Source: Gemmatimonadota bacterium (GTDB taxonomy: Bacteria; Gemmatimonadota; Gemmatimonadetes; Gemmatimonadales; GWC2-71-9). From it: DNA of 49,601 bases. Below the pieces are notes generated by a model, which did no database searches, was not told where the DNA came from, and was given only the letters and a program-made list of their open reading frames with translations. A program made the position numbers and the translations under genes. The stretch is taken from positions 1 through 49,601 of the forward strand of contig JAOTWJ010000007.1 of the NCBI GenBank assembly GCA_029862925.1, given 5' to 3'. Below, one piece after another: positions 35,599-38,898 of the stretch. The first letter of the stretch is position 1; each line of letters opens with the position of its first letter.

Positions 35599-36426
35599 CT
35601 ATCCGGATCCGAGGCCCGGGTACACCTCCGGGCGACGGTGACGCCAGAACAGGGTTCGGGCGGGGGAGGCAGCGCATTCCGCCAGGTCCAGATCGACGAC
35701 CACGAGGTCGTTCTCGAGGCGCTTGCCGCGCGCGATCACCGCGCCGTTGGGCGCGCTCACGAACGACTCCCCCGCAAACGTGAGCCGCTCCTCCGCCCCC
35801 ACCCGATTGCAGAGCGCGGCGAAGTAGCCGTTCTGAAACGCGGCCGTGCGCACTTCGGCCTCGTACATGCCCTCCGGCCACTCGTCGAGGCCGCCCGCCT
35901 GGGGGATGACCACGAGTTCCGCACCCGCGAGGCCGAGCGCCCGCATGTATTCAGGGTAGTGTCGGTCGTAGCAGATCGCGACGCCCACGCGTCCCACGCG
36001 GGTCTCGTACACCGGTGCACCACGGTCGCCCGGATCGTAATAGGCCTGCTCGTGGAAGCACGCGTAGTCGGTGATGTGGACCATGCGCGTGATGCCGAGC
36101 AGCGTCCCGTCGGCGTCGAACACCGGCGAGGTGTCGTAGTGCTTGCCAGCCGCGGCCTCGTACTGGTTGAACACCGTCACGAGCCCGCGGTCCGCGGCCT
36201 TGGCGGCGATCCGATCGCTCGTGGGACCGGGGATGGGCTCGGCCAGTTCCCGCGCGCCGGCATGGCGTTCCCACTGCGGGAAGAACCGCAACAGGGCCAA
36301 CTCCGGGAAGGCGACGAGCCCGGCCCCGAGGTCGGCGGCTGCGTCCATGGTCGCGAGCGCCCGCTCGAGGTTCCGCGCGGGATCTCGCCCCGCTGCTACC
36401 TGGGCCAAGGCGAGGCGGACGGTCAC
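35599..36426 (-). CDS. Carbon-nitrogen hydrolase (nitrilase superfamily) lacking the catalytic lysine
   Basis: This 275-residue protein has the nitrilase-superfamily core. E42 lies in FPEL, the second glutamate E126 in CFHEQAYY and nucleophile C152 in AICYDRHYPEY; the C-terminal FWRHRRPEVYP is as in N-carbamoylputrescine / beta-ureidopropionase-like members. At the lysine position (R-K-M-H in N-carbamoylputrescine amidohydrolases) it reads ITRMVHITD, so K is replaced by M115. Without the lysine, amide hydrolysis by the known mechanism should fail, so it may be an altered or non-catalytic member. The GTG start overlaps the methyltransferase stop (GTGA). Confidence 0.85.
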   Translation of the reverse strand: MTVRLALAQVAAGRDPARNLERALATMDAAADLGAGLVAFPELALLRFFPQWERHAGARELAEPIPGPTSDRIAAKAADRGLVTVFNQYEAAAGKHYDTSPVFDADGTLLGITRMVHITDYACFHEQAYYDPGDRGAPVYETRVGRVGVAICYDRHYPEYMRALGLAGAELVVIPQAGGLDEWPEGMYEAEVRTAAFQNGYFAALCNRVGAEERLTFAGESFVSAPNGAVIARGKRLENDLVVVDLDLAECAASPARTLFWRHRRPEVYPGLGSG

Positions 36427-37142
36427 GGCCGCTCGCCCATGGTGAGCAGCGTTCCGTGGGTGACCTTCCAGTCGGGGGGGCCGTCGGACTCGGCCGGCTC
36501 GGGTTGCCGGATCCGTTCCTGCGACACGTGCACGAAACCGGCCCGCTCGAACGCGGCCTGCCAGCCCGCCTGGTCGAGCAGGGTCATCTCCACCCCGAGG
36601 TCATCAGGCCACGAGTGGCTGGCCACGTTCTCCCCGTAGAAGTCGACCGCGCACGCGAACCGCCCGCCGGGCACCAGCAAGTCGAGCGTCTCGCCGAGCG
36701 CGGCGTCGAGGTCGGGGAGGTAATAGAAGACCTCCATCGAGAAGATGGCGTCGAACAGGCCCACCGGGTTGCCGGTGCCGTCGGGCGCGAGCCCGGCCAG
36801 CCCACCGCGCGCGCCGAACATCGCCACCCGAAACTCGGTGTTGGGTAAACGGGCCGACAGGCGTTTGGCCAGCGCGATCATCTCCGGCGATACGTCGATT
36901 CCCACGACCCGGCCACCGGGAGCCGCGGCGGCGGCCCACCGCACCGCAGAGCCGTTGCCGCACCCGATGTCCAGAAACCTGGCGTCGCGCGCCAGCGCGA
37001 GCCGCTCCAGGGCCCGCCGGGCCACGGGCCAATGGCTGTCGGCCATGCGGTCCGCCCGGTCGCCCTGGGCCCACTCGTCGAATACCGCCCGGACCCGGGC
37101 GACCCGGCGCTCAATGGAATCGGCGCCGTCAGTCTCTGCCAA
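36423..37142 (-). CDS. Class I SAM-dependent methyltransferase
   Basis: This 239-residue Rossmann-fold enzyme has motif I FLDIGCGNGSAVRWA, motif II VVGIDVSPEMI and the post-I acidic end of strand 2. FDAIFSMEVFYYLPDLDAAL (motif IV) and LLVPGGRFACAVDFYGEN follow. It fits the Methyltransf_11/25 small-molecule class. A TTG start at 37142 is chosen: GGAGG lies 4 bases upstream and the start overlaps the kinase gene by 14 bases. It overlaps the nitrilase-like gene by 4 bases. The acceptor is unknown; a link to the kinase or to the nitrilase-like protein is suggested only by the coupling. Confidence 0.87.
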   Translation of the reverse strand: MAETDGADSIERRVARVRAVFDEWAQGDRADRMADSHWPVARRALERLALARDARFLDIGCGNGSAVRWAAAAAPGGRVVGIDVSPEMIALAKRLSARLPNTEFRVAMFGARGGLAGLAPDGTGNPVGLFDAIFSMEVFYYLPDLDAALGETLDLLVPGGRFACAVDFYGENVASHSWPDDLGVEMTLLDQAGWQAAFERAGFVHVSQERIRQPEPAESDGPPDWKVTHGTLLTMGERP

Positions 37143-38898
37143 GCAGCCTCCGGACCAGGCGTCGGGGGTTGAACCGCCAGCGTCGCAGGGCGCGCTCGAG
37201 CGCCTCCGCATAGGCTTCCGCCGATTCGAACCGCTCGTCGGGATCGCGCGCCGCCGCGCGGGTAAGGACCCGCGCGAGCTCCTCGGGCACGTCGGCCCGA
37301 TGGGCGCGCACGTTGGGCACTTCCCCGAGGGCCTGGCGCGCCAACACGCTCTCGATCGTCCCGCCGCCGAACGGCAGGCGGCCCATGAGGCCGAAGATGG
37401 CGACCATGGTCAGGGAGTACAGGTCCGCGCGGTTGTCTACCATCTCGCCCAGCAGCTGTTCGGGCGCCGCAAACTCCGGCGTGCCCGAATGCGAGTAGTG
37501 CTTCCGATCGTCACGCAGGCCTTCGAGGGCCAGGGCGAGCCCGAAGTCGGTGATCTGAATCCGCCAGTCGGGCCGCTCGAGCAGGATGTTCTCCGGCTTG
37601 AGGTCGCGGTGCACGAGCCCCTGCCCATGCGCGTGCGTCAGCGCGGACAGGCCCTGCCGAAGGAGCTCGACCGCTTGGGGAATCGAGAGCGGCCCATGGC
37701 GCCGCACGTATTGGCCGAGGTTCTCCCCCGGGATGAAGGCCATCGTGTACCACAGCAGGCCCGTGCGGCCGCCCGTGTCGAACACGTCCACGATGTGGGG
37801 ATGCCGGACCTGGGCGGCGAGCTGCGCCTCGCGCCGGAACCGCTCCACCACACCCGGATCGGCGGTGAGGGACGGATGCAGGACCTTGAGCGCCACCTCA
37901 CGCTCGAGCGCCAAGTCGCGCACCCGATACACCCGTCCGAACGCGCCGGCGCCCAGCTCGCTCAGCAGTTCGTAGTCGTCGCCCAAGGCCCGGCGCAGCA
38001 GCTTCTCCCACGCCGTGGGGTCGGACTCGGCCGTGAGCGGGGCGGCGCTCGTCCGAAAGGCGAGATCGCCCAGCTCCGACAGCAGGTCCCCTGCCATCTC
38101 GGCCGCGTTGAGGTAGCGCGCGCGTCCCATCGGCTGGAGGGCGTGGACCACCACCCGCTCGAGTGCCTTCGGACACGCGGTGCGGAGCAGTGACGGGGGG
38201 GAAATATCCGCGGGGTCGGCGGCCGGCGCCTCACCCGTAACCGCGTAGTAGATCAGGGCGGCCGCCGCATACAGGTCGCTGCCGGGGTCGCCCGGGTCAC
38301 CGTTGCGCGTCTCCGGCGCCAGGAACGGGTCGGTCGCGGGATCCACCTCCGGCCCGGCATACTCGAGCAAGGAGTTGGCCCAGCGCAGATCGGTGATGAT
38401 CGCGCGGCCCGCGCGCGTCAGCATCAACGACGTGGGTGCGATGCGCCGTACCACGATCTGCTGGGTGTGCGCGTAGTCGAGGGCACTCAGGAGGTCTCGG
38501 GCGAGCTGGAGCACGTCGGGGATGGGCCGCGGTCCGCGCTGGATGGCCTCGTAGAGACTCTCGCCGTCAATCCACTTGGTCACGCGATAGGCCCAGTCTC
38601 CGCGGTACCCGGCGGAGTGGATCGGGCGGAGGCCCGGGTGATCCAACTGGGCGAGCAGGACCGTCTCGCGCTCGAACCAGCGGCGCCCAGGGGTATCCGG
38701 CTCGAAATGCACCCGCAGCGCCACGCGCCGTTCGAGCACGACGTGCCGGGCCACGAACAGCGCACGGAACTCGTTGGCCGCGACGAGCTGCTCCAACTCG
38801 AACATGCCCGCGAAGACGTGCTCGGCCTCGCGCTGGAGCGCGGCCGCGTCCACCGATGGCGCGATCGGCGCATGCGTGGACGGGATTGGAGCGGTCAT
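37129..38898 (-). CDS. Tandem pseudokinase-Ser/Thr kinase
   Basis: This 589-residue cytosolic protein holds two Hanks-type kinase domains and no membrane segment. The C-terminal domain (about 310-570) is intact: glycine loop GAGAFGRVY (316-324), VALK with K338, HRDLKPEN (430-437), DFG (451-453) and APE (478-480). The N-terminal domain (about 30-285) keeps the fold and APE (194-196) and a SDLY helix, but lacks the glycine loop. It has R62 in place of the VAxK lysine, RRIAPTSLML in place of HRDLKPxN, and DLR in place of DFG. It should not be catalytic and may regulate the second domain. ATG 38898 has no clear Shine-Dalgarno. The gene heads an overlapping trio with a methyltransferase and the nitrilase-like protein. 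Confidence 0.9.
   Translation of the reverse strand: MTAPIPSTHAPIAPSVDAAALQREAEHVFAGMFELEQLVAANEFRALFVARHVVLERRVALRVHFEPDTPGRRWFERETVLLAQLDHPGLRPIHSAGYRGDWAYRVTKWIDGESLYEAIQRGPRPIPDVLQLARDLLSALDYAHTQQIVVRRIAPTSLMLTRAGRAIITDLRWANSLLEYAGPEVDPATDPFLAPETRNGDPGDPGSDLYAAAALIYYAVTGEAPAADPADISPPSLLRTACPKALERVVVHALQPMGRARYLNAAEMAGDLLSELGDLAFRTSAAPLTAESDPTAWEKLLRRALGDDYELLSELGAGAFGRVYRVRDLALEREVALKVLHPSLTADPGVVERFRREAQLAAQVRHPHIVDVFDTGGRTGLLWYTMAFIPGENLGQYVRRHGPLSIPQAVELLRQGLSALTHAHGQGLVHRDLKPENILLERPDWRIQITDFGLALALEGLRDDRKHYSHSGTPEFAAPEQLLGEMVDNRADLYSLTMVAIFGLMGRLPFGGGTIESVLARQALGEVPNVRAHRADVPEELARVLTRAAARDPDERFESAEAYAEALERALRRWRFNPRRLVRRLLGRD

Follow-up and report, generated by a model that had tools for sequence, protein, structure and literature searches.

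A compact, vertically inherited pseudokinase-kinase chain in an uncultivated family of Gemmatimonadales

Chains in which a pseudokinase domain is followed by a kinase domain that it controls in cis are familiar from JAK/TYK2, with their JH2-JH1 order, and from GCN2. In bacteria, PglW of type-2 BREX and certain DndF proteins carry an inactive kinase and then an active Ser/Thr/Tyr kinase in one polypeptide (PMC12839542). Here we describe a protein of this layout, 589 amino acids long, from an uncultivated Gemmatimonadota bacterium. It is encoded on contig JAOTWJ010000007.1 of assembly GCA_029862925.1, whose 49,601 nucleotides constitute the stretch analysed (the window; it is contig 160 in a draft genome of 3.49 Mb that is about 90% complete and has a G+C content of about 70%). 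Because the PglW and DndF tandems had already been described, the statement in the initial annotation that no bacterial system of this form is known was wrong. The architecture is known from large defence proteins; a compact, two-domain and vertically inherited version of it is not described in the papers searched.

The likeness to PglW lies in the tandem layout, and the PglW model gives local matches along both kinase domains of the window protein. PglW, however, is a protein of 1400-1600 amino acids with extras of its own, namely an N-terminal NERD nuclease, a C-terminal region resembling the C-terminal domain of the RNA polymerase alpha subunit, winged helix-turn-helix (wHTH) and iSTAND parts and a place in a defence locus, none of which is found in the window kinase; the latter begins with the pseudokinase and gave no NERD match with Pfam. 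Its N-terminal domain scores 94.9 bits with PknB as against 34 bits with PglW, nearer to PknB by score. With JAK/TYK2 and GCN2 the window kinase shares the domain order, but both of its domains are PknB-like and there is no evidence for common descent of the tandem. The FERM-SH2-JH2-JH1 architecture of JAK is not present either: the 589 residues hold two kinase domains only, with no space for a FERM/SH2 or, as in GCN2, a HisRS-like region. The best local match is the NCBIfam model PknB_PASTA_kin; from kinases of the PknB/StkP type the window protein differs in having neither a transmembrane (TM) segment nor PASTA repeats and in scoring 343 bits, below the cut-off of 450.

The gene and its parts are given below, with residue counts from an alignment of 54 full-length orthologous chains.

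37129-38898, minus strand: tandem pseudokinase-kinase gene, 589 amino acids, matched by Pfam Pkinase in two stretches
38071-38817, minus strand: N-terminal pseudokinase domain, residues 28-276, a bilobal kinase fold with no clear alphaG helix and with degenerate catalytic motifs
38713-38715, minus strand: R62, replacing the VAIK lysine (Arg in 50/54 orthologs, Lys in 0/54)
38434-38448, minus strand: R-R-I-A-P (151-155), replacing H-R-D-x-K (R151 and P155 in 54/54)
38383-38391, minus strand: D-L-R (170-172), replacing D-F-G (D170 in 54/54, R172 in 53/54)
37180-37974, minus strand: C-terminal active-type kinase domain, residues 309-573, a PknB-like RD kinase according to Pfam, alignment, AlphaFold2 (AF2) and Foldseek
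37885-37887, minus strand: K338, the ATP-binding Lys (54/54)
37603-37611, minus strand: H430-R431-D432, catalytic loop (D432 in 53/54)
37540-37548, minus strand: D451-F452-G453 (53/54, one gapped)
37138-37167, minus strand: basic amphipathic C-terminal helix, about residues 578-587, a possible membrane anchor

The N-terminal domain is matched by the PknB profile at 2.8e-35 and keeps the kinase fold in the AF2 model, where the predicted local distance difference test (pLDDT) is mostly about 90. Its glycine loop is absent from all aligned orthologs. The VAIK Lys is lost from all 54, the four chains without Arg in this column having Tyr or His, and so is the HRD Asp, whose column holds Ile, Val, Leu or Met; the DFG Asp is retained as D170 and followed by Leu and Arg. 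Since the same degenerate pattern recurs in 54 of 54 chains it is not due to chance. Invariant positions are the APE Glu (E196), E78 and D208, and an arginine-rich signature (R62, R151, R152 and R172) is proper to this domain. The ratio of nonsynonymous to synonymous substitution rates (dN/dS) in nine pairs is 0.06-0.17 for the N-terminal and 0.03-0.16 for the C-terminal domain, indicating strong and similar purifying selection on both; together with the conserved columns this rules out a decaying domain. Judged by these residues, the N-terminal domain is a true pseudokinase. The initial annotation had read the motifs of both domains correctly (no glycine loop, VALR, RRIAP and DLR; K338, D432 and DFG), and with degeneracy in every aligned chain next to an intact C-terminal domain the pseudokinase-kinase chain that it reported is real.

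Among the seven bacterial pseudokinase families described in a review (ActPs1-3, GLW, CP1, DYD and DLHK; PMC12599244), several share single traits with this domain: Arg stands at the VAIK position in ActPs2 and DYD, the dead active site of DLHK contains arginines, and many ActPs1 members lack the G-helix. The combination of RRI-x-P for HRD with DLR for DFG is, in the sections consulted, the signature of none of the seven, and the review makes no mention of tandem chains or of Gemmatimonadota.

The C-terminal domain reads as an intact PknB-like Ser/Thr kinase. GxGxxG, K338, E357, R431, D432, N437 and DFG are each present in 52-54 of the 54 orthologs, the APE motif is also kept, with its Ala varying between Ala and Ser, and the activation-loop residues S469, S471 and T473 are conserved; in the window protein E357, H430-R431-D432, N437 and D451-F452-G453 are among the motif residues. 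Foldseek gives a TM-score of 0.91 and about 35% identity between this domain and PknB. In the AF2 model (26 sequences, mean pLDDT 85.8) both domains are kinase-like, and the top Foldseek match, spanning both of them over 577 columns, is a tandem EGFR kinase-domain duplication, with PknB next. The linker WE.RLLRRALGD.YELL beside the kinase domain is co-conserved with both domains even where the neighbouring genes differ. With the N-domain (A1) profile the C-terminal domains of the same chains reach about 140 bits, a score no higher than that of unrelated kinases, which bears on an origin by duplication within the chain.

The protein had been described as a cytosolic single chain. This stands in so far as the 589 residues contain no TM-like segment, the highest mean hydropathy being 1.3 over 19 residues. 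However, most chains close with a basic amphipathic helix (GFLRRLAALFRPES, DWARAAARWLRG, RRLVRRLLGRD), whose conservation suggests peripheral membrane binding. The C-terminal tails of 55 of 73 chains beat shuffled tails at p<0.1, where about 7 would be expected, although these chains are related by descent.

The tandem chain was found in 85 of the 102 genomes of the uncultivated Gemmatimonadales family to which the window belongs, a little-known lineage from soil and water, and in 45 of the 50 near-complete ones (query residues 1-287). It is nearly always present in a single copy per genome, mostly in an open reading frame (ORF) of about 550-700 codons. In a phylum sample of 298 Gemmatimonadota genomes complete tandem chains scored 345 bits or more with the N-domain profile, whereas ordinary kinases did not exceed 156 bits; partial tandem copies from fragmented assemblies fell into this sharp gap. 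Within this sample tandem chains were confined to the window's family (f1), apart from three genomes in a sister family, f3, and no true tandem match occurred in f2 or the remaining families. Among the matches listed in the named collection, the strong N-domain matches all came from uncultivated Gemmatimonadota/Gemmatimonadales genomes, so that, as far as these listed matches go, the tandem is likely absent from other phyla. Being family-wide, the chain is not peculiar to one strain, and a tree of 73 chains shows vertical inheritance with neighbours that change. Weakly matching ORFs with two kinase domains were seen in Sorangiineae (L157), Acidobacteria (L192) and Chloroflexi (L202); they were rejected as the same tandem, as both domains retain DFG and most of them also an Asp-containing HRD-like motif. 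The 3.5-Mb genome of the window (G000) itself gives about 55 kinase-domain matches, which makes its Ser/Thr kinome very large by bacterial standards.

The best-supported receiver of the kinase, where present, is a protein with two FHA domains, a single TM segment, a coiled coil and a trypsin-like domain (Pfam FHA twice and Trypsin_2), encoded divergently beside it; its one hydrophobic segment follows the FHA domains. In searches that covered the family and the order, this gene was found in 25 of the 102 family genomes; by the coordinates of the kinase and protease matches and of locus L035, it lay divergently and no more than about 3 kb from the kinase gene in 22 of these, for which chance would account in the order of 0.2% per genome (estimated as 6 kb of 3.3 Mb). 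Examples of such FHA-FHA-TM-coiled coil-trypsin-like genes, which would join a cytoplasmic phospho-reader to an envelope protease, are L038:10004-12118, L036:5239-7071 and L078:9246-11138. The gene is lost from the window, where an amidase pair occupies its slot:

39028-40755, plus strand: 104-amino-acid ORF and amidase gene, in the divergent slot that holds the double-FHA protease gene in close relatives

No full copy was detected elsewhere in the window's genome, whose sole match is a protease fragment of 38% identity lying at the edge of a contig. In a second clade of tandem kinases a GGDEF gene lies upstream of the kinase gene in 22 loci, in some with a 4-base overlap; in others of this clade a CGNR zinc-finger gene precedes it. 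Because the kinase gene follows a GGDEF gene in this clade, its input may be tied to cyclic di-GMP (c-di-GMP). The GGDEF protein of L054 (7237-8580) and of clade C loci has a long N-terminal region without a Pfam match, in several genomes its gene and that of the kinase have a 4-base overlap, and the L054/clade C pair adjoins QueC/QueE-like genes.

To judge by the eukaryotic analogues, the live kinase is most likely under in-cis control by the pseudokinase, and we put the probability that the protein is a vertically inherited Ser/Thr kinase whose dead domain regulates the live PknB-like domain of the same chain at roughly 60%. The pseudokinase domain would bind a ligand or partner, or dock on the kinase domain, and so switch kinase activity, and the basic amphipathic helix would place the chain at the inner membrane. 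Where the FHA protease is present, it would read phosphothreonine made by the tandem kinase and carry the cytoplasmic signal to a periplasmic protease. Several points weigh against this proposal. Control in cis is here an analogy with JAK/TYK2. The predicted template modelling score of the AF2 model, 0.55, leaves the arrangement of the two domains unfixed, and its docking pose was set aside for this reason. The FHA protease is missing from most of the family and, as a full copy, from the window's own genome, and therefore cannot be the only output of the kinase; distant homologs of it occur, moreover, in f2, a family without the kinase fusion. The arginine-rich dead site could, from its residues, bind an anionic ligand. 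The fully specified version, in which control of the JAK type works through binding of an anionic second messenger to the dead site (for instance c-di-GMP, for which a synthase gene adjoins the kinase gene in one clade), which would switch the kinase, with the phosphothreonine read by the double-FHA TM protease, is improbable; if true, it would amount to an inside-out phospho-signal to the envelope.

Might the N-terminal domain instead serve purely as a scaffold on which the FHA protease, the GGDEF protein or substrates dock, with no control over the catalytic domain? The well-studied bacterial pseudokinases MviN and EssB/YukC work by scaffolding (PMC12599244), and the partner gene of the tandem kinase does differ between clades. 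Both domains and the linker are nevertheless conserved together despite these changing neighbours, and we consider a mere scaffold possible but unlikely. There is still less reason to expect an enzyme turned to another reaction, such as the AMPylase SelO or the glutamylase SidJ, or an arginine-based nucleotide binder. The conservation of R62, R151, R152, R172 and D170 speaks for such a role, and arginine-based ATP binding has been proposed for the DLHK, DYD and ActPs2 families (PMC12599244); but D170 and E78 are the only residues left at the positions that normally serve catalysis and metal binding, and there is no Gly loop.

Control of the live kinase by the dead domain thus remains our preferred reading, and it leaves aside the two genes that follow the kinase gene in the window:

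36423-37142, minus strand: class I S-adenosylmethionine (SAM) methyltransferase gene, 239 amino acids, TTG start, an occasional neighbour (Pfam Methyltransf_11/12/25)
35599-36426, minus strand: carbon-nitrogen hydrolase (nitrilase) gene, 275 amino acids, GTG start, with E42, M115 (for Lys) and C152 (Pfam CN_hydrolase)
36082-36084, minus strand: M115 codon, aligned with the catalytic-Lys position of the nitrilase superfamily

Coordinates and Pfam matches bear out the overlapping trio that the initial annotation had noted, with overlaps of 14 bases between kinase and methyltransferase genes and 4 bases between methyltransferase and nitrilase genes; the TTG is the presumed methyltransferase start by comparison with orthologs, and an ATG at 37211 also lies in the open frame. 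It had further been proposed that the trio is one signalling or modification system, in which the kinase would control the methyltransferase and the altered nitrilase on a shared substrate. The translational overlaps speak for it, the 4-base one recurring in L036, as does the order kinase-(GT4)-methyltransferase-nitrilase, found again in L040 and L041 (a GT4 glycosyltransferase gene follows the kinase gene in 4 of the 15 loci of the window's clade). However, among the 73 loci with a full-length kinase the methyltransferase adjoins it in 4 and the nitrilase in 9, all within this one clade (9/15 for the nitrilase). The 14-base overlap is not conserved: L036, a close relative, has a gap of +69 in its place. 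Two further members of the clade, G033 and G034, carry the nitrilase on a different contig from the kinase, and nitrilase orthologs are spread over several Gemmatimonadota families, often without the tandem kinase and with no consistent partner gene. Neighbour profiling thus rules out the trio as a conserved system, and the coupling as proposed is very doubtful. The two downstream genes are lineage-specific companions of the kinase gene, probably transcribed together with it but outside the conserved mechanism, and the FHA protease is a better-supported partner than either.

The absence of the catalytic Lys from the nitrilase, also reported initially, proved to be a trait of a phylum-wide subfamily. 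CN_hydrolase matches residues 4-253 at 6.1e-45, and Met115 stands where 1erz, 5h8i and plasmid-borne relatives have the catalytic Lys, E42 and C152 being retained. The motif TRM[VM]HI is present in 10/10 orthologs of the clade and in L241-L269 (TRMVHIC in L249), almost all of which retain Glu and Cys, and the Glu-Lys-Cys triad is incomplete in every ortholog inspected, Lys being replaced by Met. The protein thus resembles N-carbamoylputrescine amidase and the nitrilase superfamily in its CN_hydrolase family and its Glu and Cys, but differs from N-carbamoylputrescine amidase (AguB) in the Lys to Met exchange and scores 160.5 bits against an AguB cut-off of 410. No literature on a Lys-less nitrilase was found in the papers searched. 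The subfamily is a candidate for altered chemistry and poses a separate, modest question of enzymology. Downstream of the nitrilase gene lies a 53-amino-acid CxxC-CxxC zinc-ribbon-like ORF (35170-35331), with a further small cysteine-containing ORF in between (near 35375-35562).

A defence role related to PglW (BREX), the MADS kinase MAD6 or PD-T4-6 was rejected as scarcely credible, since the PglW and MAD6 models match parts of both domains but score far below their curated cut-offs (115.6 against 990 and 226.6 against 460 bits) and the PADLOC PD-T4-6 matches of up to 366 bits are generic, while 589 residues cannot accommodate a NERD nuclease, a wHTH or an iSTAND region as well, no defence genes were identified near the kinase, no recurrent BREX-type neighbour was recognised in the profiled loci (the PADLOC scan covering part of the neighbours), and the gene, passed on vertically, occurs throughout the family and not in a patchy pattern.

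Bacterial pseudokinases have barely been studied. A compact, soluble pseudokinase-kinase chain that is nearly universal in one lineage would offer a minimal system for in-cis control by a dead kinase, with the linked FHA-FHA-TM-protease gene as a directly testable output. It also asks whether the pseudokinase-kinase solution, as seen in JAK, GCN2, PglW/DndF and now the Gemmatimonadales tandem, arose more than once.

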